Below the pieces are notes generated by a model, which saw only the letters and a list, made by a program, of their open reading frames with translations, did no database searches and was not told where the DNA came from. A program made the position numbers and the translations under genes. Below, piece after piece: positions 33 through 32,290 of a DNA stretch of 37,460 nt (positions within the stretch are counted from its first letter, which is position 1; each line of letters starts with the position of its first letter). The DNA comes from Sulfurimonas sp. (lineage in GTDB: Bacteria; Campylobacterota; Campylobacteria; Campylobacterales; Sulfurimonadaceae): the NCBI GenBank assembly GCA_030247515.1, contig JAOTSA010000009.1, positions 1-37,460 of the forward strand, in the 5' to 3' direction.

Positions 33-1151
33 TTACTTGAACCAACTCTTCATTTTCTCGATTGCAGAGTCTAAAACACTTTCATGCGGTTTTGACTCTA
101 TGCCAAAAGAATCTTGGAGTTTTAGGAGTAGTTCTCGCTGTTCGTCGGTTAGTTTGTTTGGGTATGTGATGTTGACTTGCGCTATCAAGTTTCCTTTGCC
201 ATGACCGTGAACATCCTCGATTCCCTCGCCTCTAAAAACAAAATGCTGTTTGTCTTTTGTTCCAACGTCAAGTTTTAGCTCCAGTTCACCCGTGAGTGAT
301 GGGATGCTTAGTGTATCGCCTGCAACTGCTTGCGTGAAAAATACTGGAATAGCGATATAGATATCATTGCCATCACGCTGAAAATGTTTGTCTGCTTTGA
401 CGCTAAAAGTGACGTAAAGGTCGCCTCTTGTACCACGCTTACCGATGTTTCCTTTTCCTGAAACTCTTAGTCGATTACCGTTGTCGATGCCTTTTGGTAT
501 CTTAATAGTAACACTGCCACGCTCTTCATGGTAGCCTTTGCCATCACAACTGTTGCATTGTGCAGCAGGAGCAGAACCAGTTCCATGACACGCTGGACAA
601 GTTTGTGAGAATGTCATAAAGCCTTGCTTCATAAAGACTTGACCTTGACCTCTACACTGACTACAAGTAGATAATTTGCCATCTTTAGCACCAGTGCCAC
701 TACAACTGTTGCACGAGTTTTTGTACTTAAACTCTACCTCTTTTTCGCATCCAAAAACTGCTTCGCTGAAAGTGATGTGCATATCAACGTTCATGTCGAG
801 GTTGTATTTTTCCATATCGGATGGGTTTTGACGACGGCGTGAAGAGCCGCCAAATCCGTTAAACATCTCTTCAAAGATAGAGCCTAAATCGTCAAAACCG
901 CCAGAAGAGCGTCTGCCGCCCATCCCTTGAAGTCCTTCTTTACCGTATCTGTCGTAAATGCTCTTTTGCTTTTCATCGCTTAAGCATTGGTATGCTTCGT
1001 TGCATAGTTTAAAATTGTGTTCTGCTTCGCTATCACCTGGATTTTTGTCTGGGTGGTAAATTTTAGCCATCTTTCTATATGCTTTTTTGATGGTTGTCTG
1101 GTCTGCATCTCGTGAGACTTCTAAAATTTCATAATAGCTCAAATCTTGCAT
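33..1151 (-). CDS. dnaJ: Chaperone DnaJ (Hsp40)
   Basis: Cytoplasmic co-chaperone that delivers unfolded clients to DnaK and stimulates its ATPase. All domains are visible in the 372 residues. The J domain occupies about residues 1-70 with the HPD motif at 33-35, and a Gly/Phe-rich linker covers about 72-105. The zinc domain has four CxxCxGxG-type repeats, with cysteine pairs at 147/150, 163/166, 185/188 and 199/202. A beta-rich client-binding C-terminal domain follows. Length is normal for full DnaJ, which separates it from zinc-finger-less CbpA. The start is supported by AAGGA nine bases upstream. It is divergent from mltA; no grpE or dnaK is nearby. Confidence 0.96.
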   Translation of the reverse strand: MQDLSYYEILEVSRDADQTTIKKAYRKMAKIYHPDKNPGDSEAEHNFKLCNEAYQCLSDEKQKSIYDRYGKEGLQGMGGRRSSGGFDDLGSIFEEMFNGFGGSSRRRQNPSDMEKYNLDMNVDMHITFSEAVFGCEKEVEFKYKNSCNSCSGTGAKDGKLSTCSQCRGQGQVFMKQGFMTFSQTCPACHGTGSAPAAQCNSCDGKGYHEERGSVTIKIPKGIDNGNRLRVSGKGNIGKRGTRGDLYVTFSVKADKHFQRDGNDIYIAIPVFFTQAVAGDTLSIPSLTGELELKLDVGTKDKQHFVFRGEGIEDVHGHGKGNLIAQVNITYPNKLTDEQRELLLKLQDSFGIESKPHESVLDSAIEKMKSWFK

Positions 1152-1183
1152 CTTTTTCTATCCTTGCCTGAAATTTTTTCGCA

Positions 1184-1189
1184 ATTATG
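1184..1189 (-). promoter_or_regulatory. Candidate -10 box for dnaJ
   Basis: CATAAT on the minus strand lies about 33 bases upstream of the dnaJ start in the divergent gap, with the AAGGA ribosome site between them. No convincing -35 is seen, as is usual for sigma70 promoters in this phylum. Confidence 0.35.
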
Positions 1190-1219
1190 GCGTTTAAAAT
1201 TTAATCTTCACATTTGCTT

Positions 1220-1228
1220 TGGTATAAT
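1220..1228 (+). promoter_or_regulatory. Extended -10 promoter of the mltA operon
   Basis: TGG-TATAAT is a perfect -10 hexamer (1223-1228) with an extended TGn element. Transcription would start near 1234-1236, at or next to the lipoprotein ATG at 1236. No Shine-Dalgarno-like sequence lies between box and start, so the message may be leaderless. Confidence 0.6.
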
Positions 1229-1235
1229 CGCATTT

Positions 1236-2420
1236 ATGAAAAGAAATATACTTTATATAATCGCTATTTTACTTTTAGTCGGATGTTCTAAAGAACCAAC
1301 TGTTATTGTGGATGAAACACATTTTAAGAGACCTTTTGAAGTTCAAGAAAAAGTCGCAGATGGTGTGCCGAGCGTGCAAAAAAGCGTTCAAAAGGTAAAG
1401 CTTCCTATCGTACCCAATGTAGAGCTTATCCCTAGCAGTTTTGAAGAGCTTCCTAACTGGGAGAGTGAAGACCATGTAGCGGCTTTAAACTCTTTCATCA
1501 CAAGCTGTAAAACAACTAAAACAAAAGCACTTTATGAAGAGTTGTGTCATGCCGCAAAAGAGACGCCAAATCCCAAAGATTTTTTTATGCAAAACTTTGC
1601 ACCTTATCAGGTTGACGCATCGGATAAAAAAGATGATGGGCTTTTGACAGGTTACTATGAACCACTTCTAAGAGGCTCATTGAAAAAAAAAGCACCTTAC
1701 ATCTATCCAGTATATGCAACTCCCAAAGATTTGATTACCATAAAATTGGCAGACCAGTATCCAGAGCTTAAAAACTATAGGTTGCGTGGAAGAATGGATG
1801 GAAACAACGTTGTTCCATACTACTCTCGAAAAGAGTTGAGCAAGCGAAAACTTGATGCTGAGATTGTTTGTTATGTGGACTCCAGAATTGATCTTTTTTT
1901 CCTTGAAGTGCAAGGTTCAGGAAGGGTTTCGCTTGAAAACGGAGAGATGATGTTTGTAGGCTTTGACAATCTCAATGGACACAAATATAAATCTATCGGA
2001 AAGTATCTTATAGAGTTGGGCGAAATGAACTACGCAGAGGCTTCTATGCAAGGAATCAAAAAGTGGTGTGATCAAAACCCATTGCGTGTTGATGAGTTGC
2101 TAAACTATAATGATTCTATGGTCTTTTTTAAAAAGAAAAATCAGCCTGCCACTGGAGCATTGGGCGTTATATTGACACCTGAACGCTCTGTTGCCATTGA
2201 CCAAAGCTATCTTCCTCTTGGAAGTATGCTCTATATGAGTGCAGATGCAAAAGAGAAGAACTTAAGCAGAATCGTCCTAGCACAAGATACGGGCGGTGCT
2301 ATCAAAGGGAGTGTGCGTGCTGATTTCTTTTGTGGATACGGAGATGAAGCTGGGCAAATTGCAGGCAGACTAAAAGCACCTCTGAAACTGTGGATATTAT
2401 TGCCAAAAAAAGAGTCATAA
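1236..2420 (+). CDS. mltA: Membrane-bound lytic transglycosylase A, lipoprotein
   Basis: MltA-family lytic transglycosylase, which cleaves the MurNAc-GlcNAc bond of peptidoglycan to give 1,6-anhydro ends. The start was set at the ATG that yields a lipoprotein signal (MKRNILYIIAILLLVGC, lipidation Cys17), not at an open-frame extension 30 codons upstream that would cross the promoter. The C-terminal 3D domain shows family blocks such as VQGSGRV, DQSYLPLGSMLYM and LAQDTGGAIKGSVRADFF, with catalytic Asp candidates in the latter. At 394 aa it is close to the family norm. It is the first gene of a run with recR, mlaA and mlaC. Confidence 0.92.
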   Translation: MKRNILYIIAILLLVGCSKEPTVIVDETHFKRPFEVQEKVADGVPSVQKSVQKVKLPIVPNVELIPSSFEELPNWESEDHVAALNSFITSCKTTKTKALYEELCHAAKETPNPKDFFMQNFAPYQVDASDKKDDGLLTGYYEPLLRGSLKKKAPYIYPVYATPKDLITIKLADQYPELKNYRLRGRMDGNNVVPYYSRKELSKRKLDAEIVCYVDSRIDLFFLEVQGSGRVSLENGEMMFVGFDNLNGHKYKSIGKYLIELGEMNYAEASMQGIKKWCDQNPLRVDELLNYNDSMVFFKKKNQPATGALGVILTPERSVAIDQSYLPLGSMLYMSADAKEKNLSRIVLAQDTGGAIKGSVRADFFCGYGDEAGQIAGRLKAPLKLWILLPKKES

Positions 2421-2445
2421 TGTCTTTTTTGATAAGGAGTGTTGT

Positions 2446-3015
2446 GTGGAGAGTTCTTTAAGTAAATTCAATAAGCTTGTTGATGCACTTCAAGAGCTTC
2501 CGACAATCGGCAAAAAATCAGCGATACGTTTAGCATACCATATTGTGATGAAAGATAGTTTTGTCGGGATGAAGATATCACATGCCATAGAAGATGCGCT
2601 TGGTAACATACAAGAATGCAGCTCTTGCGGTGGTATGAGTGAAGACATGTTATGCACAATCTGTTGTGATGAGAACAGAGATGCAACTCTTCTTTGCATT
2701 GTTGAAAATGCTAAAGATATTCTTCTTTTAGAGGAGAACAGACTTTTTGAAGGGAGGTATTTTGTTTTGGAATCTTTAGAAAATTTTAATCTCTCAAAGC
2801 TTGAGAAGATAGTTGCCTCTGGTGTGAAAGAGATAGTTTTTGCCCTAACGCCTTCTATCGCAAATGATGCTGTTATGTTATATATTGAAGATAAATTAAG
2901 TGATTTTGATATAAACTTCTCAAAAATTGCGCAGGGTGTTCCCACTGGTGTGAGTTTAGAAAATATAGATTTGTTGTCTCTTAGCAGAGCGTTGACAGAT
3001 AGAGTGAAGGTATGA
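2446..3015 (+). CDS. recR: Recombination mediator RecR
   Basis: RecR acts with RecO (and RecF) to load RecA on SSB-coated DNA during gap repair. An N-terminal helix-hairpin-helix region (LQELPTIGKKSAIRLAYHI) is followed by a four-cysteine zinc motif (CSSCGGMSEDMLCTIC) and a Toprim domain (LCIVENAKDILLLE). It is 189 aa, normal for this phylum. The start is GTG, preceded by AAGGAG with six bases of spacing. The Toprim block reads ALTPSIANDAVMLYI, diverged from the usual TNPTxEGEATA pattern. Its 3' end overlaps mlaA by four bases (ATGA). Confidence 0.93.
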   Translation: MESSLSKFNKLVDALQELPTIGKKSAIRLAYHIVMKDSFVGMKISHAIEDALGNIQECSSCGGMSEDMLCTICCDENRDATLLCIVENAKDILLLEENRLFEGRYFVLESLENFNLSKLEKIVASGVKEIVFALTPSIANDAVMLYIEDKLSDFDINFSKIAQGVPTGVSLENIDLLSLSRALTDRVKV

Positions 3016-3806
3016 AAATGAGGCTGATTTTAACCATGACAAGTTGTGCGCTTGTTTTTGGGCTAAGTGCGTGCAGCTCCAAAAGTGTTGAAAAACCGCA
3101 TGAAGCAGTAGAACCACCACAAAAAAGCAGTAGCGTGGATGATGAGTTGGCATCTTTTGCAGAGGAGATGGAAGTTCAAGAGATTTATGACCCATTGAGC
3201 GGTTACAACCGTGTCATGACAAATTTTAATGACACTGCATATGAATATGTTCTCAAGCCAGTTGCAACTGGTTATAAAAATGTGTTGCATATTGAGATTC
3301 GCAACTCTATAGGGAATTTTTTTGAAAATATCCATTTTCCAGTGCGATTTGCCAACACGCTTTTGCAAGGTAAACTCTCTTATGCCACAGAAGAGACGGG
3401 AAGATTTGTTATAAATACAACTGTTGGTGTTTTTGGACTGTTTGACCCCGCAAAGAGCTATTTTGAGCTTCAAGCGCATGATGAGGATTTTGGGCAGACA
3501 CTTGGATTTTATGGTGTTGGAAACGGTCCTCACATTGTACTTCCGCTTCTTGGACCATCAAATTTGCGTGACGCTTTGAGTCTGTATCCTGACTCTCTTT
3601 TAAGTGTTTTAGATTATGATGAGAGAAGTTACTGGACGCTCACAGACACACCAGCTGAGTATATCGGTGCAAAAGCAGTAGAAAAAACAAATGCTATCTC
3701 TTTGTACATGGATAAATACGACAAGATAAAAGCTGATGCGGTTGACTTGTATCCATATTTAAGAGACATGTATGAACAGCGTAGAAAAAAACAGATTGAG
3801 GAGTAG
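3012..3806 (+). CDS. mlaA: MlaA (VacJ) outer-membrane lipid asymmetry lipoprotein
   Basis: Outer-membrane component of the Mla system, which removes phospholipid mislocalised to the outer leaflet and passes it to periplasmic MlaC. A type II signal peptide ends in LSAC (lipidated Cys21). The conserved block DPLSGYNRVMTNFND is typical of VacJ/MlaA and is followed by the amphipathic helical domain (VRFANTLLQGK, ETGRFVINTTVGVFGLFDPA). It has 264 aa. It overlaps recR by ATGA and is followed three bases later by mlaC, its functional partner. The inner-membrane MlaFED parts are not in this window. Confidence 0.94.
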   Translation: MKMRLILTMTSCALVFGLSACSSKSVEKPHEAVEPPQKSSSVDDELASFAEEMEVQEIYDPLSGYNRVMTNFNDTAYEYVLKPVATGYKNVLHIEIRNSIGNFFENIHFPVRFANTLLQGKLSYATEETGRFVINTTVGVFGLFDPAKSYFELQAHDEDFGQTLGFYGVGNGPHIVLPLLGPSNLRDALSLYPDSLLSVLDYDERSYWTLTDTPAEYIGAKAVEKTNAISLYMDKYDKIKADAVDLYPYLRDMYEQRRKKQIEE

Positions 3807-3809
3807 TTT

Positions 3810-4412
3810 ATGAAGTATATATATAAAGTAGTTTTAGCCCTGAGTGCAGTGTTCTTCTTTGCACAAAGTTTAGCAGCGGATGAGCAAACAGTACTGAAAA
3901 AGCATTTTTTGACCAAAATAGATGAAGTTATTTGTATAGTTGAAAGCAAAAAACTTACAAGAGACCAGAGAAATGGCGATATTGTCAAGGCACTGACTCC
4001 AATGTTTGATTTTGAGCTTATGGCAAAACTAAGCCTTGGAAACAGATGGAAAGACCTCTCTGATGCAGAAAAAGAGAAGTTTGTTGCACTTTATGTGGAG
4101 CGCATGAAACAGTCTTACTCATCAAAAATTGATGCCTATAAAGATGAAAAAGTAGAGATAAAAAAGGCAGAACAAACTAAAGAAGATAGGATAACTCTAG
4201 TAACTGACCTTGTCAGTAAAACCCAAAAACTTGAAATCGCCTATAAATTTCATAAGCCCAAAACTCCTATTGCGTCAAAAGACAGCTGGCTTATTTATGA
4301 TGTAGAGATTTTGGGAGTAAGTATTTTAAAGACAGATATAGCACAGTTTAAAGAGTTTTTAAATACCAAAAGCATAGCTGAACTTATAGATGTTTTGATA
4401 AAACAGTCATAA
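3810..4412 (+). CDS. mlaC: MlaC/Ttg2D periplasmic phospholipid-binding protein
   Basis: Periplasmic shuttle carrying phospholipid between MlaA and the MlaFEDB inner-membrane complex. A Sec signal peptide covers about the first 23 residues (VVLALSAVFFFAQSLAA). The body matches the MlaC/Ttg2 fold, including MFDFELMAKLSLGNRWKDLS and the C-terminal WLIYDVEILGVSILK. It has 200 aa, typical length. The three-base gap after mlaA indicates co-transcription. A long inverted repeat lies just downstream. Confidence 0.93.
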   Translation: MKYIYKVVLALSAVFFFAQSLAADEQTVLKKHFLTKIDEVICIVESKKLTRDQRNGDIVKALTPMFDFELMAKLSLGNRWKDLSDAEKEKFVALYVERMKQSYSSKIDAYKDEKVEIKKAEQTKEDRITLVTDLVSKTQKLEIAYKFHKPKTPIASKDSWLIYDVEILGVSILKTDIAQFKEFLNTKSIAELIDVLIKQS

Positions 4413-4489: not shown

Positions 4490-7171
4490 TTGAAATACAT
4501 TCTCGTTTCTCTACTGCTTGCTTCGCTTCTTCAGGTTTTTTTATGGCTTAACAGCGATAACAAATTTATTACTCCTCCCGATGCTGAGGATATCATCGAA
4601 TCACTCTCTTATGCACCTTATACAAAAAAGAATGAAAAAGAGATGCTTAGCGATGAAGAGGTTATCAGGGATTTAAAACTCCTAAAAAAGTTTACTAACA
4701 CTGTTCGTTTCTACTCTGCGGATGATTCTCGAAAAGTTCTGCCTTTTGTTAAGCAACTTGGCATGAACGCACACATGGGGCTTTGGCTCTCTGGAGTTCC
4801 TGAGGACAACGAAAAAGAGATAGCTTTGGCTAAAACTCTTATTACTGATTATTATGACAACTTAGCATCTGTTATTGTTGGAAATGAGGTTCTGCTTCGT
4901 GATGACCTTAAGCCTGATGAACTGGTTGTGCATATCAGAGATTTTAAAAGCTTTGTAAACGATATTTTCAAAACAAGAAAAAATGTCAAAGAACAAGCAA
5001 TTCAAGACGAGCTTGCAAAGATAAAAAACAAGCGTAAAAAAGATGCAAAAGAGAAAGAACTTCGAGTAGAACTTGCAAAAAACAAAGAACATACTGTAGC
5101 AGTTACAACAGCTGAAATCTGGAACATGTGGTTGCTTTATCCTGATTTGGCAGATGAAGTTGATATGATAAATATCCATATTCTTCCATACTGGGAGAAT
5201 ATAAAAGCGGAGAATTTTGAAGCATTCTTTAATGAGATTTACCAAAAAATACGAGATGTTCATAAAACAAAACCTATCATAGTAGGTGAGTTTGGATGGC
5301 CAAGCCAAGGGTACAACAACCAAGGTGCAGTGGCAAGTCCGCAAAATCAGGCGATGATAATTAGAAGATTTTTGGGAATGGCAAAGGAAAATGGCTTTAG
5401 CTATAACCTAATGGAAGCTTTTGATCAGCCTTGGAAAGGTGTTGACGAGGGAAGTGTTGGGCAGTATTGGGGTATTTTTGATGCACATCGTAATCTCAAA
5501 TTTGAGATGCAAGGCGTCGTGCTTGTAGAGCCATATTGGTTTATGCAGATGGTTGCAGCTGCCATTATTGGAGCATTTCTGACGTTCTATGGACTCAGAA
5601 ACCAAAATATCAACTTTTTACATGCCATTACCTACGGTTTAGCCGCACAAGGTATCTCTTTTGGTATTGTTATGGCGGCAGTTTATCCATTTATCCACTA
5701 CATGAACTTTGGTATGTGGATTATGTGGGGGATGGGTTCTATTTTGATGATACCGCTCACACTCATAACACTTGCAAAAGCAAATGAGCTTTTCAAGTGT
5801 ACTATTGGAAAGCCACCTGAGAGACTTATACCGCTTGATTTGAAGTCGGATAGAGTTCCTTTTGTGAGTATTCACGTTCCAGCATATAAAGAGCAACCAG
5901 CGGTTTTAGAAGAGACGCTTCTTGCTCTTGCAAAACTAAAATATACCAATTATGAAGTCCTTGTTATTATAAACAATACTCCTGAAGAGTTCTATAAAGC
6001 ACCTATCAAAGCACTTTGTGAAGAGCTTGGCGAAAAGTTTGTCTATTTGGATATCCAATGTACAGGATTTAAAGCAGGCGCACTTAACAAAGCATTAGAG
6101 TTTACAAATCCAGAGTGCGAGATACTTGCTGTTATTGATGCTGATTATGTAATCAAGCCAAATTGGCTTATTGATTTGGTACCTATTTTTGATGATTCTA
6201 AAGTTGCATTGGTTCAAGCACCGCAAGACCACAGAGACGGCGATGAATCACTTATAAAGACAGCTATGAATGCTGAATATGCAGGCTTTTTTGATATTGG
6301 TATGGTTGAACGCAACGAAGAGAATGCTATCGTGGCACATGGAACTATGCTTATGGTACGCAAAAGTGCATTTGATGAAGTTGGGCAGTGGAATACAGAT
6401 ACAATTGTTGAAGATAGTGAACTAGGGCTTAGACTCTTTGAAGCTGGCTATATTGGACACTATACAAATCGCCGTTATGGACATGGACTACTACCAGATA
6501 CTATTGAAGCGTTTAAAAACCAACGTCACCGTTGGGCATACGGTGCGGTGCAGATTCTCAAAAAACATTGGCAACACTTTAAACCATCATCCAAAACGCT
6601 TACCCGTGCGCAAAAACATCACTTTATCACAGGTTGGTTCTTCTGGCTCTCTGACGCACTTGGACCAGTAACGGCAGTGCTAAATATTTTATGGGTTCCA
6701 GTGATTATTTTTGTAGGAGTAACTATCCCGACGATAGCACTTACAGTACCGATTTTAACGGCATTTTTAGTTAATGTGATTCACTCATTTGTACTTTATA
6801 AAACAAGAGTAGGAGCAAAGTTTTATCACTCTACGCTAGGTGCAATTGCAGCAATGAGCTTGCAACTTATGATCTTTAAAGCAGTATATGACGGATTTGT
6901 TAAAGACCGTCTGCCATTTAAGAGAACAGAAAAGGGCGGCAACAGTAAAATAAGTATCAGCAGTCCAGTTAAAAATGAGATAATCTTGGCAACACTGCTT
7001 TTAGGCTCATTTGTAGCACTTATCATGACAAACCATCAAGATATCGTTGAGATATATGTTTTCTCTGCTACGATTTTGATTCAGAGTGTGCCTTATGTCT
7101 CTGCAATCATTCTTCGACTTATCGAAAAAAGCTCTTATAAAAAAGAGACCTCCCAATCTACAAATATATAG
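4490..7171 (+). CDS. NdvB-like bifunctional GH17 / GT2 beta-glucan synthase
   Basis: Predicted inner-membrane enzyme polymerising and remodelling a beta-1,3-type glucan. The TTG start has AGGAA five bases upstream and begins a membrane anchor (residues 1-20). Residues about 60-340 form a GH17 domain with acid/base Glu133 (VIVGNEVLLR) and nucleophile Glu267 (IIVGEFGWPSQG). Two or more membrane spans follow (about 350-430). The GT2 domain (about 455-690) has DAD at 550-552, ED at 641-642 and QRHRW at 678-682, then C-terminal spans. The GH17-GT2 order matches Pseudomonas NdvB, whose GH17 part is a glucanosyltransferase. A Lys/Glu-rich insert (about 160-200) interrupts GH17. It is monocistronic; product and linkage are inferred. 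Confidence 0.85.
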   Translation: MKYILVSLLLASLLQVFLWLNSDNKFITPPDAEDIIESLSYAPYTKKNEKEMLSDEEVIRDLKLLKKFTNTVRFYSADDSRKVLPFVKQLGMNAHMGLWLSGVPEDNEKEIALAKTLITDYYDNLASVIVGNEVLLRDDLKPDELVVHIRDFKSFVNDIFKTRKNVKEQAIQDELAKIKNKRKKDAKEKELRVELAKNKEHTVAVTTAEIWNMWLLYPDLADEVDMINIHILPYWENIKAENFEAFFNEIYQKIRDVHKTKPIIVGEFGWPSQGYNNQGAVASPQNQAMIIRRFLGMAKENGFSYNLMEAFDQPWKGVDEGSVGQYWGIFDAHRNLKFEMQGVVLVEPYWFMQMVAAAIIGAFLTFYGLRNQNINFLHAITYGLAAQGISFGIVMAAVYPFIHYMNFGMWIMWGMGSILMIPLTLITLAKANELFKCTIGKPPERLIPLDLKSDRVPFVSIHVPAYKEQPAVLEETLLALAKLKYTNYEVLVIINNTPEEFYKAPIKALCEELGEKFVYLDIQCTGFKAGALNKALEFTNPECEILAVIDADYVIKPNWLIDLVPIFDDSKVALVQAPQDHRDGDESLIKTAMNAEYAGFFDIGMVERNEENAIVAHGTMLMVRKSAFDEVGQWNTDTIVEDSELGLRLFEAGYIGHYTNRRYGHGLLPDTIEAFKNQRHRWAYGAVQILKKHWQHFKPSSKTLTRAQKHHFITGWFFWLSDALGPVTAVLNILWVPVIIFVGVTIPTIALTVPILTAFLVNVIHSFVLYKTRVGAKFYHSTLGAIAAMSLQLMIFKAVYDGFVKDRLPFKRTEKGGNSKISISSPVKNEIILATLLLGSFVALIMTNHQDIVEIYVFSATILIQSVPYVSAIILRLIEKSSYKKETSQSTNI

Positions 7172-13693: not shown

Positions 13694-14342
<649 letters not shown>

Positions 14343-14344
<2 letters not shown>

Positions 14345-14368
14345 TTGAACCTTTTAGGGGGTTCAATT
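14343..14368. terminator. Bidirectional terminator between the two adenylate kinases
   Basis: A 9-bp perfect stem AATTGAACC / GGTTCAATT with an eight-base loop overlaps both stop codons. T-runs follow on each strand (TTTTT at 14372-14376 for the plus gene; a T-run in the last codons of the plus gene read on the minus strand). It serves both convergent operons. Confidence 0.8.
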
Positions 14369-14936
14369 ATATTTTTGACTTTATAAAATCTTCCATTTCC
14401 AAGACTATCTCTTCTATAGTTCTCTCACCGCTGATTGTGTGTAGAAAACTTCTATCATTATAAAATGCTTTTATATCTTCAAGAGGTTCAGTATAAACTT
14501 TCATACGGTTGTTAAAAATCTCTACCTTGTCATCCTCTCCACGAGAGCGTCCTAAAACTCTATCTCTTGCGGTATCTTCGCTTACATATACTTCTATAAC
14601 ACTGCAAAGTTTTAAAGATGAATCTTTTTTTAGATAATCATCCAAAGCATTTAACTGTTCCATACTTCTAGGGTAACCATCAATGATGATAGTGTCGGTA
14701 GGGGCATTTTTGATAGCATTTACTATAGTTTCTATGGCTATTTTGATGGGAACTATAAGTCCTTTGGATATATAGCTCTCTATCTCCGCACCAAGAGCAG
14801 AGCCGCTTGCGACCTCTGCACGGAGCATATCGCCTGTGGAGTAGTGCGTTATCTCACTGTTCTGCTTTGCGATAAGCTCTGCATCAGTTGTTTTGCCAGA
14901 ACCTGGTGCGCCGATGATAAGAAATAGCTTTTTCAT
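14367..14936 (-). CDS. adk: Adenylate kinase, short Campylobacterota form
   Basis: Adenylate kinase lacking the long LID. P-loop GAPGSGKTT (8-16), TDAELIAKQNSEITHYSTGD, IIIDGYPRSMEQLNALD and VLGRSRGEDD with a short lid. At 189 aa it closely follows Helicobacter pylori Adk (about 191 aa), so this is likely the ancestral lineage enzyme. Its start overlaps the aspS stop by one base (TAATG), so the two are translationally coupled. A larger Adk of gammaproteobacterial type faces it across 22 bp. Confidence 0.92.
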   Translation of the reverse strand: MKKLFLIIGAPGSGKTTDAELIAKQNSEITHYSTGDMLRAEVASGSALGAEIESYISKGLIVPIKIAIETIVNAIKNAPTDTIIIDGYPRSMEQLNALDDYLKKDSSLKLCSVIEVYVSEDTARDRVLGRSRGEDDKVEIFNNRMKVYTEPLEDIKAFYNDRSFLHTISGERTIEEIVLEMEDFIKSKI

Positions 14937-28134: not shown

Positions 28135-29951
28135 ATGAAAAAAATGTTTGCAATTAGTGGAATTATAAACTACCTAATAGTTGTTTTTTTAAATGCTTTT
28201 ACTGATTTGGGTCATAAGATAATCATCCAAAACACCGTATTTAAGGTGTATGACGGAACAACCCAAATCATGCTCACGGCAGTTGTAAATGCTTTGATGC
28301 TGCTTCATTCATCTTGGCATTTTCTCCCTCTGGCTATTTAAGCGACAGATTTGCAAAAAATATCGTGATGAAGCACGCCGCTCTTTTGGCTGTTTTTATC
28401 ACTCTTGCCATCACTTTTTGCTACTATCAAGGTTGGTTTTTTACCGCTTTTGCCCTTACATTTTTACTTGCCCTCCAAAGTGCGCTTTACAGTCCCGCAA
28501 AATACGGATATATAAAAGAGTTGGTTGGTTCAAAATATATAAGTGAGGGAAACGGTGCGCTTCAAGCGGTTACAACAAGTTCGATTTTGCTTGGCATCAT
28601 CGTCTATACCATACTTTTTGAGACGCTTTTAGGCGATGTTTTTGCTACAAAAGAGGATATTTTAAGAACTATTGCACCGCTTGGGTGGCTTTTGGTTTTG
28701 GGCTCGGTTGTTGAGTATCTGCTTGCTCTCAAATTGCCAAACATGAGTGTAAAGACAACACGCAAAAAATTTGAGTTTGCAAAATATATAAAGGGTTTTT
28801 ATCTCAAAAAAAACCTCATAATGCTTAGAAGAAAAAAAGAGGTTTTTGACTCTGTCATAGCACTTAGCCTTTTTTGGTCGGTTTCTCAGGTCGTTTTGGC
28901 TATTTTTGGCGAGTACGCAAAGAGTGAGCTTAGCATTACAAATACGATTGTCGTTCAGGGAATTATGACTTTTTCGGTTATCGGCATAGTTGTCGGCTCG
29001 ATGTTATCGTCCGCTTTTTCAAAGTACTACATCAACAGCGGACTTGCAGCACTCAGCGCATTTGGCATTGCACTGTTGCTTTTTATGATTCCTTTTACTG
29101 TAAACACGCTTCTTTTGGGAGTAGAATTTGTCCTCTTTGGACTCTTTAGCGGCATGCTTTTAGTACCGCTAAATGCAAAGATACAGTATCTCTCTCCCGA
29201 TATCCATCTTGGAACAGTTTTAGCAGGTAATAACTTTGTCCAAACGCTTTTTATGTTCTCTTTTTTAATGTTAACAACGCTCTTTGCCTACTTTGGCATG
29301 AATGCAAAAATCCTCTTTTTTGTTATGGGTTTTGTCGCACTCTATCTGCTCTATAAGCTTTTAAAGAGATATCTTGTCATGGCGGTTTGGACGCTCTTTG
29401 AGTCAATTTTAAAAATCCGTTACAAATGCACATACATAGGTCTTGAACATATCCCACAAAACACGCCGATACTCTTGGCAGGAAATCATGTTAGTTGGCT
29501 TGACTGGTTTATACTTCAGCTTCCACTGGAGGAGAGAGTTGTTTTTTTGATTGATAAAGATATATATAACAATAAATTTCTAAAACCGATTTTTAAATTA
29601 GGCGAATTGATTCCTATCTCGCAAAAAGCTTCAAAAGATTCTTTTTTTGAAACCTCAATGAAATTAAAAAATGGTAAAATAATCGCCATATTTCCCGAGG
29701 GTGAAATAGCGAGAAGTTCTAGCGTGTCAAAGTTTTACAGAGGATATGAGTTTATAGAGCGTGGCGGTGCGGTAATAGTGCCGTTTCATATTGATGGAAT
29801 TTTTGGAAGTGTTTTTGCAAGACATAAAGGCGATGCAAAGAGATGCTTCTTAAAAAAGAGAGAGATTACGCTTACCTTCGGAGAGCCGATTTCTAGGCAT
29901 ATAAGTGCGGATGAACTTAGAGAAATAGTTATAAATTTGAAAAGGATATAA
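28135..29951 (+). pseudogene. LplT-PlsC fusion (lysophospholipid transporter/acyltransferase), frameshifted
   Basis: Two overlapping frames form one product: 28135-28341 encodes the first membrane segment of an MFS/LplT transporter and 28314-29951 the rest plus a PlsC acyltransferase. The frames join around 28303-28310: upstream reads ...VNALMLL, downstream ...FILAFSPSGYLSDRF. Restoring one base (for example CTTCCATTC for CTTCATTC) gives a continuous protein of about 605 aa. The acyltransferase has HVSWLD (His392 of the second frame) and FPEGE (460-464). It resembles Aas without its acyl-ACP synthetase domain. The remaining frame is intact for over 500 codons, so this is a recent mutation or a sequencing error. 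Confidence 0.85.
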
Positions 29952-29953
29952 AT

Positions 29954-31138
29954 TTGAGAACAACATTAATCATAGGTGCAGGTGGAGTTAGTCGTGTAGT
30001 TGTATATAAATGTGTACAAAATGCGGATGTTTTTGGGAAAATCATACTAGCGAGTAGAACGCTAAAGAGATGTCAAGATATAAAAGATGAGTTACCAAAT
30101 GCAGATATTGAAGTAGCAAGTGTGGATGCAGATAGCACGGATGAGGTTATAAAACTTATAAATTCATGCAAACCGAGCATAGTTATAAATGTCGCACTTC
30201 CGTATCAGGATTTGGCGATTATGGATGCGTGTATTGCTACAAAAACTCCATACCTTGATACTGCAAACTATGAACACCCAGATGAAGCAAAGTTTGAGTA
30301 CAAGCTTCAATGGGAGAGAGATGAGAAGTTTAAAGAAGCGGGAATCATGGGACTTTTGGGAAGCGGTTTTGACCCTGGGGCTACAAATGTATTTTGTGCT
30401 TATGCTCAAAAACACTACTTTGATGAGATTCACACTATAGATATTTTGGATTGTAACGCTGGCGACCATGGATACGCATTTGCAACAAACTTTAACCCTG
30501 AAATCAACCTCCGTGAAGTTAGCGCAAACGGTAGATATTGGGAGAACGGCGAGTGGATTGAGACAAAACCGCTTGAAATCATGCAGGTTTGGGATTATCC
30601 TGAAGTAGGACCAAAAGATAGTTATCTGCTCTACCATGAAGAGATGGAGTCTTTGGTGCAAAACATCAAAGGGCTAAAGCGCATCAGATTTTTTATGACA
30701 TTTGGACAAAGCTACATCAAACATATGGAAGTGTTGCAAAATGTCGGAATGTTGGGAATTGAACCAGTTGAGCATAAAGGCATGATGATAACTCCGATTG
30801 AGTTTTTAAAAACGCTTCTGCCTGACCCTGCATCTTTGGGTTCAAGAACTAAAGGCAAGACAAATATCGGTATTTTGGCTGAGGGTATCAAAGACGGCAA
30901 AAAGAGAAAGATATATATCTATCAGGTAAAAGAGCATGAAGAGTGCTACCGTGAGACAAATTCTCAAGGCGTATCTTACACAACGGGTGTTCCTGCGATG
31001 ATAGGCGCAAAACTTATGTTAAAAGGCATCTGGAGCGGTGTTGGTGTCTTTAACATGGAACAGATGGATCCTGATGCGTTTATGGAAGAGATGAACACAC
31101 AAGGACTTCCTTGGCAGATAAAAGAGCTAGAAGCGTAA
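29954..31138 (+). CDS. Carboxy(nor)spermidine dehydrogenase/synthase
   Basis: NADPH-dependent enzyme of the saccharopine-dehydrogenase (Lys1/Lys9-like) family that condenses aspartate semialdehyde with a diamine (putrescine or diaminopropane) to a carboxylated polyamine. The nucleotide-binding motif is GAGGVSRVV at 8-16; other family blocks are NVALPYQDLAIMDACI and GLLGSGFDPGATNVF. It has 394 aa. The TTG start has AAAGGA seven bases upstream. The next gene encodes the matching decarboxylase, which makes the assignment firm; whether the product is spermidine or norspermidine cannot be told from sequence. Confidence 0.9.
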   Translation: MRTTLIIGAGGVSRVVVYKCVQNADVFGKIILASRTLKRCQDIKDELPNADIEVASVDADSTDEVIKLINSCKPSIVINVALPYQDLAIMDACIATKTPYLDTANYEHPDEAKFEYKLQWERDEKFKEAGIMGLLGSGFDPGATNVFCAYAQKHYFDEIHTIDILDCNAGDHGYAFATNFNPEINLREVSANGRYWENGEWIETKPLEIMQVWDYPEVGPKDSYLLYHEEMESLVQNIKGLKRIRFFMTFGQSYIKHMEVLQNVGMLGIEPVEHKGMMITPIEFLKTLLPDPASLGSRTKGKTNIGILAEGIKDGKKRKIYIYQVKEHEECYRETNSQGVSYTTGVPAMIGAKLMLKGIWSGVGVFNMEQMDPDAFMEEMNTQGLPWQIKELEA

Positions 31139-31141
31139 TCG

Positions 31142-32290
31142 ATGCAGAGTTTAGAAAAAATCGCTACACCGTACTATATTTGCCATGAGTCTCTTCTTCG
31201 TGCAAACCTTGAAATCTTAAATCGTGTACAGATTGAGAGCGGAGCTAAAGTGATTTTGGCTCTCAAGGGTTTTGCGATGTGGAGTACATTTCCTCTCGTA
31301 AAACAGTATCTCAAAGGGTGTACATCAAGCGGACTGCACGAGGCACTTTTGGCACGGGAAGAGTTTGCAAAAGATGATAAAAATCTTGAAGTTCACACAT
31401 ATTCGCCTGCATACAAAGATGAAGATATAGATGAGATAGCACGCATATCCGACCATATCGTTTTTAACTCGCCAAATCAGCTCTTTAAGTACGCTGATAG
31501 GGTAAAAAAGATAAATCCTGCCGTGAGTCTATCGCTAAGAATAAACCCTGAACAGTCCTCATCCCCAAAAGATATCTACAACCCTTGCGGGCTTTACAGC
31601 CGTCTGGGAACAACGCTTGCAAATTTTGACGAGAGAGTTTTAGAACATATCGATGGGCTTAACTTTCATGCACTTTGCGAACAGGATGTTGATGCGCTTG
31701 AAGAGGTTTTAGAGGCGTTTGAAGAGAAGTTTTCAAGGTACTTTAAAGACATGAAGTACATAAATTTCGGCGGCGGTCACCATATAACCAAAAAGGGTTA
31801 TGATGTTGAGAAACTCATAAGCATCATCAAAGATTTCAGAGCCAAATACGGTGTTGAAGTTTACTTAGAACCTGGAGAAGCAGTAGGCTGGCAGACGGGC
31901 GAGCTTGTAAGCAGTGTGCTAGACATTGTTCACAACGGCATGGATATAGCCATCTTAGACACATCGGCAGAAGCGCATATGCCCGACACTCTTGCCATGC
32001 CTTATCGTGCGATGGTGCGTGGAAGCGGCGAAGCGGGAGAGAAAAAACACACTTACAGATTTGGCGGAAACACTTGTCTAGCTGGCGATATCATGGGAGA
32101 TTACTCTTTTGATGAGCCGCTCAAAGTTGGCGATAAAGTGATTTTTGAAGACCAAATCCACTATACATTTGTAAAAAACACTACATTTAACGGCATCAAA
32201 CTCCCATCGCTTGTTATAAAAAGAGAAGATGGAATCGTGGAGCTTATAAAAGAGTTTGGATATCAAGATTATAGAAATAGATTGTCGTAA
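31142..32290 (+). CDS. nspC: Carboxy(nor)spermidine decarboxylase
   Basis: PLP-dependent alanine-racemase-fold decarboxylase that turns carboxyspermidine or carboxynorspermidine into the free polyamine. The PLP lysine is in ILALKGFAMW (Lys42). GLNFHALCEQD, the glycine-rich phosphate loop FGGGHHITKKGYD and YLEPGEAVGWQTGELV are characteristic, as is GGNTCLAGDIMGDY at the second active-site half. It has 382 aa. It starts three bases after the dehydrogenase, giving a complete two-step alternative polyamine route, as in Campylobacter and Vibrio. Confidence 0.93.
   Translation: MQSLEKIATPYYICHESLLRANLEILNRVQIESGAKVILALKGFAMWSTFPLVKQYLKGCTSSGLHEALLAREEFAKDDKNLEVHTYSPAYKDEDIDEIARISDHIVFNSPNQLFKYADRVKKINPAVSLSLRINPEQSSSPKDIYNPCGLYSRLGTTLANFDERVLEHIDGLNFHALCEQDVDALEEVLEAFEEKFSRYFKDMKYINFGGGHHITKKGYDVEKLISIIKDFRAKYGVEVYLEPGEAVGWQTGELVSSVLDIVHNGMDIAILDTSAEAHMPDTLAMPYRAMVRGSGEAGEKKHTYRFGGNTCLAGDIMGDYSFDEPLKVGDKVIFEDQIHYTFVKNTTFNGIKLPSLVIKREDGIVELIKEFGYQDYRNRLS

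Follow-up and report, generated by a model that had tools for sequence, protein, structure and literature searches.

The question raised by the gene at positions 4490-7171 (+) of a 37,460-nucleotide stretch of Sulfurimonas sp. DNA (the window, meaning the whole stretch analysed) is what an NdvB-like protein, joining a glycoside hydrolase family 17 (GH17) barrel to a glycosyltransferase family 2 (GT2) domain, does in a Campylobacterota genome, and whether the charged insert interrupting its barrel takes part in the reaction. The initial annotation had presented the product as an NdvB-type beta-glucan enzyme with both active sites complete and with an insert possibly altering substrate binding, and it had treated the presence of the enzyme in this phylum as news. 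Our analysis of the sequences suggests a probably active NdvB-family member bearing a lineage-specific arm and a phylum-wide change at the GT2 donor site, and we consider it likely that the protein is a synthase of periplasmic beta-glucan, with the arm lying off the catalytic cleft and with an NdvC-like protein as partner. The kind of enzyme and its occurrence in Campylobacterota are already known: the homologues of the Orphan GH17-GT2 (cyclic-beta-glucan synthase) group treated in the available part of PMC10237404 include that of Arcobacter butzleri ED-1 (clade 3), which is modelled there, so that the host phylum is borne out but its novelty is not. What is new here, judging from sequence comparison, is a second, NdvC-like GH17 protein co-occurring with NdvB.

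The reading frame is intact and encodes 893 amino acids, the coordinates and strand having been assigned correctly. It begins with TTG, and this start together with the upstream purine-rich GGA-type site holds the same position in 11/11 loci picked for inspection, other loci using ATG (L055) or GTG (L015). A tblastn search of plasmid records returned a single match covering at least 80% of the protein, the annotated ndvB of Pseudomonas aeruginosa (L106; 34.6% identity over 97% of the query, E 3e-144), and the order GH17 then GT2 within one membrane protein is supported by matches to PF00332 and PF13641/PF13632 above the curated cut-offs. By these comparisons the window protein belongs to the NdvB / Orphan GH17-GT2 family as a variant in the DD motif, and the assignment to NdvB thus stands. 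In some metagenome-assembled genomes the gene is shortened or split into several frames (L064, L179 (G399), L039, L048 and L079), being either a pseudogene or an assembly error, while one genome (G203) carries two copies (L080 and L018) and lacks any match within the membrane domain of the NdvC-like protein.

The N-terminal membrane anchor (residues 1-22, 4490..4555 (+)) is indicated by hydropathy and by a helix at residues 2-21 in the AlphaFold model. It is followed by the periplasmic GH17 barrel (residues 35-341, 4592..5512 (+)), within which Pfam Glyco_hydro_17 matches residues 262-340 (32.5 bits, cut-off 28.2). The closest solved relative of this part is the fungal beta-1,3-glucanosyltransferase 4wtp, superimposed on the model with Z 30.5 and a root-mean-square deviation of 2.2 over 256 aligned residues. 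Glu133 of the VGNEV motif (codon 4886..4888 (+)) and Glu267 of GEFGWPS (codon 5288..5290 (+)), to which the available part of PMC10237404 assigns the roles of acid/base and nucleophile, respectively, are conserved in all 56/56 proteins of an alignment composed of 55 Campylobacterota sequences and P. aeruginosa NdvB. As far as GH17 is concerned, therefore, the active site is complete, as had been proposed.

The source genome has two GH17 places in total by Pfam, the second being a gene for a 639-residue protein located on another contig (C89:13780-15696 (-), equal to L067:8778-10697). This protein scores 34.1 bits with the Pfam GH17 model, keeps both GH17 glutamates without the insert, and shows nine hydrophobic segments downstream of GH17; its structural model, a good one, comprises about ten membrane helices, with a predicted local distance difference test score (pLDDT) of 83.1 and a predicted template modelling score (pTM) of 0.78. 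In the GH17 tree it joins GH17-membrane proteins of Bradyrhizobium and Azospirillum, that of Bradyrhizobium barranii among them (13 rows, 95/90), apart from NdvB, and its residues 17-510 match a Bradyrhizobium GH17-membrane frame (L104) with 33% identity, extending into the membrane domain. The Foldseek matches listed, GH17 or other barrel enzymes (PDB) or weak ones (viral library), are uninformative on the fold of that domain. NdvB itself was found in 52 of 397 genomes searched, another 41 giving only weaker matches, to GT2 where the place was listed. Matches to the NdvC-like protein reaching well into its membrane domain came from 44/394 genomes, every one among the 52 with NdvB, and 42 of the 44 are nearly full length, the match of G361 beginning at residue 48 and that of G392 ending at 520; the other 342 of the 394 genomes gave no match to this protein. 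In two metagenome-assembled genomes labelled Sulfurovum (L050 and L051) ndvB and the NdvC-like gene share 4 bases in a head-to-tail arrangement. PF00332 found no match in 14 control genomes, a control that is uninformative on sensitivity. PMC10514313 attributes group 4 periplasmic glucans to NdvB (GT2+GH17) together with NdvC. With this precedent the second GH17 protein is a likely, though still candidate, NdvC-like partner in an NdvB/NdvC-like pair. NdvC itself presumably has the same organization, with a multi-helix membrane domain behind GH17.

On the model of Pseudomonas NdvB, GT2 on the cytoplasmic side would polymerise glucose from a nucleotide sugar into beta-1,3-glucan; the chain would cross the membrane by way of the helices and reach GH17 in the periplasm, there to be cut and rejoined with elongation or ring closure, and the NdvC-like protein might branch or join the chain via beta-1,6 links. 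The division of labour between a GT2 making beta-1,3-glucan and a GH17 cutting and cyclising it follows the proposal made in the available part of PMC10237404, where non-Leloir transglucosylation by two Pseudomonas GH17 domains is also cited. The nature of the glucan, its membrane passage and the parts played by arm and partner are what we infer from this scheme, the domains, the invariant GH17 residues, the distribution of the insert and the co-occurrence of the two proteins being direct observations. Several points weigh against it. Outside GH17 the full-length model is poor (mean pLDDT 65.4, pTM 0.45, residues 635-726 below 50), so the orientation of domains was taken from the published Pseudomonas model. 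Eight of the 52 NdvB genomes (G122, G127, G203, G252, G292, G336, G357 and G359) match the NdvC-like protein only by the GH17 of NdvB, which implies that the partner is not essential, and the 52 and 44 genomes, counted from listings, share kinship and do not represent independent events. The Bradyrhizobium frame used for comparison is itself an NdvC candidate only, and its beta-1,6 role is likewise putative. To these are added the fast divergence of the insert and the substitution in the DD motif of GT2, each of which opens an alternative considered below.

The charged insert predicted inside the GH17 barrel is confirmed at residues 158-201 (4961..5092 (+)) by alignment, model and composition: its 44 residues, 55% of them charged, have a net charge of +6 and are modelled as the last part of alpha4, which is prolonged to 176, with a turn leading into a second helix at 181-197. 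The spacing between positions corresponding to Q150 and Q206, counted in 55 proteins (identical ones once; frames below 780 amino acids or 900 summed bits left out, among them incomplete or interrupted copies, for example L039, L048, L062, L064, L065 and L079), is 12 residues in 32 proteins, 24 in 10, 43 in 3, 57 in 9 and 48 in one (L081). P. aeruginosa NdvB with its spacing of 12 is devoid of the insert, as is the solved 4wtp (phmmer blocks 52-156 and 201-337), and one further protein, L172, has a spacing of 34; this row, like the others fetched later or previously excluded, stands outside the 55 and the tree. The insert is thus real and restricted. It does not recur as a loop common to all relatives, the outcome that the initial annotation had named as refuting its view of the insert. 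When the insert columns are omitted from the tree, all 12 rows of the 43 and 57 types fall into one clade beside the 24-type rows, with a value of 99 in the Shimodaira-Hasegawa-like approximate likelihood ratio test, and L081 is placed outside both, although the long branches of L081 and L055 and a very long outgroup branch make the root and the placement of L081 unsure. The model sets helices 142-176 and 181-197 between beta-4 (125-132) and beta-5 (204-210), with block pLDDT values of 76-94 over residues 141-200, and the lengths of these helices put the lineage-specific helical hairpin at an estimated 30 angstroms or so. Helix-to-strand connections of a (beta/alpha)8 barrel occupy the side away from its catalytic face. 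Since the insert belongs to the alpha4-beta5 connection, it is predicted to lie opposite the cleft, direct participation in substrate binding is unlikely, and the effect on binding suggested initially is probably wrong. In the published Pseudomonas model, as given in the available part of PMC10237404, the GH17 cleft faces the membrane helices; with this orientation the arm would point into the periplasm, away from the membrane. If it has a role, that would concern position or partners rather than the reaction itself, and peptidoglycan, anionic periplasmic material or another periplasmic protein may be envisaged as such partners.

The arm may also be devoid of function, being a neutral Lys/Glu/Ala-rich loop grown by slippage where the barrel tolerates it, and we hold this to be a serious possibility, somewhat short of even, which is compatible with the enzymatic reading. 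The insert diverges fast: rows of the 57 class share on average 51% pairwise identity within it versus 78% in the rest of GH17, as would also fit a loosely constrained loop. Its DNA is rich in A (55%, compared with 32% for the gene) and in purine (71%, compared with 53%). In the same region L036 holds a 30-base repeat in 3.1 copies, L081 has a similar insert outside the clade, and L172 demonstrates an intermediate length. Nevertheless, the spacing is constant in 9/9 rows of the 57 class although pairwise identity of the insert drops to 25%, the net charge is positive in 13/13 long-insert rows (+2 to +8), the hairpin is ordered in the model, and a search of the window copy found no tandem repeat.

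Behind the barrel, membrane helices at about residues 351-429 (5540..5776 (+)), seen in hydropathy and in the model, precede the cytoplasmic GT2 domain (about residues 440-690, 5807..6559 (+)), where Pfam GT2 models match residues 459-745 over their cut-offs and for which the best solved relative is cellulose synthase BcsA. The DAD motif (550-552, 6137..6145 (+)), the ED motif (E641 and D642, 6410..6415 (+)) and QRHRW (678-682, 6521..6535 (+)) are in place, with D550, D552, E641, D642, Q678, R681 and W682 identical in 56/56 aligned proteins. The second active site is not complete in the sense of the initial annotation, because Ile494 (codon 5969..5971 (+)) occupies the place of the first DD-motif Asp: the motif reads INN in 55/55 Campylobacterota proteins and DNN in P. 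aeruginosa NdvB, the one protein from outside the phylum in this comparison. The flanking YEVLVI-NNT is identical in P. aeruginosa NdvB, which places the alignment at this position beyond doubt. In the HMMER alignment to BcsA the two Asn fall over the two Asp of BcsA, so that the exact correspondence to BcsA is uncertain by one residue while the loss of Asp relative to Pseudomonas is firm. According to the available part of PMC10237404, the Asp of this motif helps to coordinate UDP-glucose in BcsA, and P. fluorescens SBW25 has DNN; the motif is listed there, not established as a requirement for NdvB membership. Asp-to-Ile appears from these alignments as a deviation of the Campylobacterota branch and not of the window gene alone, and it is kept as a family variant.

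The substitution implies that donor or activity may differ, and in an alternative reading GT2 would be impaired or use another donor and the protein would act chiefly by GH17 transglucosylation of glucan delivered by another synthase. Such an arrangement seems unlikely: Ile in 55/55 rows speaks for it, but the remaining motifs (GFKAG, DAD, QAPQ, HGT, ED and the whole QRHRW) show no variation in a 37-row alignment, and GT2 is the best conserved of the stretches measured (pairwise identity averages 90% among 57-class rows), which favours an active transferase. That the protein makes cellulose, beta-1,6-N-acetylglucosamine or another exopolysaccharide and is not NdvB at all is very improbable, since the NCBIfam CelA and PgaC matches on GT2 stay far below their cut-offs (109.1 vs 699.1 and 95.4 vs 422.3 bits, respectively), NdvB was the only match of at least 80% coverage in the plasmid collection, and a GH17 barrel is fused to GT2.

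For the phylum, the GH17-GT2 synthase and the NdvC-like protein offer a concrete candidate route to a periplasmic glucan. MdoG/OpgG, characteristic of group 1 periplasmic glucans, was found in 0/391 Campylobacterota genomes, the source genome included, with a positive E. coli control. Free oligosaccharides derived from PglB are known from Campylobacter. Replacement of these by the NdvB product was considered and dropped, as no simple complementarity with STT3 was seen: STT3 is present in 275/394 genomes, including every ndvB genome of the window's genus (13) and of Sulfurospirillum (genus g28; 15); two Arcobacteraceae genomes (G008 and G030, genus g14 of family f7) gave no STT3 match, and no genome of that genus was seen among the matches. 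The open-licence literature yielded no experimental work on NdvB glucans from Campylobacterota, nothing relevant on periplasmic glucan or ndvB in Sulfurimonas, PMC10237404 alone on NdvB in Arcobacter, nothing joining NdvC with GH17 and no paper connecting ndvB with mlaA. Two natural variations lend themselves to probing the NdvB mechanism, an arm of graded length (12, 24, 34, 43, 48 and 57 residues) and, in GT2, the replacement of Asp by Ile.

Upstream of ndvB the window carries mltA, recR, mlaA and mlaC on the same strand (1146-4412), the mlaA-like lipoprotein gene at 3012..3806 (+) (Pfam MlaA, 223.7 bits) being followed by the mlaC-like gene at 3810..4412 (+) (Pfam MlaC, 121.4 bits) immediately 5' of ndvB. 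Genes for mla proteins or MMPL-family transporters constitute a recurrent neighbourhood. In 12/12 long-insert rows ndvB stands behind them, about 4 kb off in G252 and directly in the other 11, where the direct predecessor is mlaC or an MMPL-family transporter gene; in L034 the transporter alone is visible, at the contig end. The MMPL/HpnN-like gene lies right before ndvB in 7/12 of these rows (for example, L033:3440-5926), and in L081 ndvB overlaps an MMPL transporter gene. The window has no MMPL/HpnN-like gene before ndvB, and a relative stands at G000:C21 (L146:199-2679). No mla gene was seen in 10/10 rows of the 24 type, several of which have little upstream DNA, nor in 15 ndvB genomes of Sulfurospirillum within the 4-7 kb read on each side, in two of them (G182 and G206) to about 21 kb upstream. 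In Arcobacteraceae, where the upstream stretch was read to unequal lengths, mlaA-mlaC-MMPL genes precede ndvB on the same strand, the nearest at 3-13 kb, in 12/23 ndvB genomes. A strict link between long insert and mla was rejected, since Arcobacteraceae have the linkage and no arm and in L057 the MMPL gene is downstream in the opposite direction. Within the Sulfurimonas genus of the window the correlation is real, resting on few events: G357, G448, G450, G458 and the broken G239 (spacing 24) together with G429 (34) give no match to the window mlaA, while long-insert genomes of the same draw do. Six relatives from the genus lacking ndvB (L165-L170) have the mlaA-mlaC-MMPL cluster followed by other genes, so the place of ndvB behind it may be fortuitous. 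The idea of the arm as a docking device tying glucan synthesis to outer-membrane lipid transport leans on the 12/12 long-insert neighbourhoods, the overlap in L081 and the Arcobacteraceae linkage, and we regard it as a long shot; if true, the synthase would be coupled to lipid carriers, for instance with phospholipid head groups decorating the glucan.

Elsewhere in the window, and judging from translations, two adenylate-kinase-like genes lie end to end on opposite strands (13697-14344 (+) and 14367-14936 (-)), a long frame at 28314-29951 resembles a transporter-acyltransferase fusion of the lysophospholipid recycling type, and adjacent carboxynorspermidine dehydrogenase- and decarboxylase-like genes (29954-32290) suggest an alternative spermidine route.

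Compared with known systems, the window protein has in common with Bgt17A of Rhizomucor miehei (4wtp) the GH17 barrel and the catalytic Glu pair, whereas the fungal enzyme is a single domain without insert and without GT2. With the homologue of Arcobacter butzleri ED-1, known here from the account in PMC10237404, it shares phylum and architecture, but the arm is absent from the 12-type proteins compared, Arcobacteraceae rows among them, the ED-1 sequence itself standing outside this comparison. The likeness to NdvB and NdvC of Bradyrhizobium japonicum consists in a GH17-GT2 protein accompanied by a second protein, the two genes of the source genome being located on separate contigs. The domain order is that of Pseudomonas NdvB, with the same succession of anchor, periplasmic GH17, membrane helices, cytoplasmic GT2 and again membrane helices, and with the motifs VGNE, ExGWPS, DxD, ED, QRxRW, GFKAG and HGT common to both. 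The window protein differs from it by 45 additional residues between alpha4 and beta5 and by Ile in place of the DD-motif Asp, and its gene by the neighbourhood: dapE, described as a neighbour of ndvB for Pseudomonas in the available part of PMC10237404 and adjoining the P. aeruginosa gene in L106, does not adjoin the window gene, which has mla genes upstream instead.

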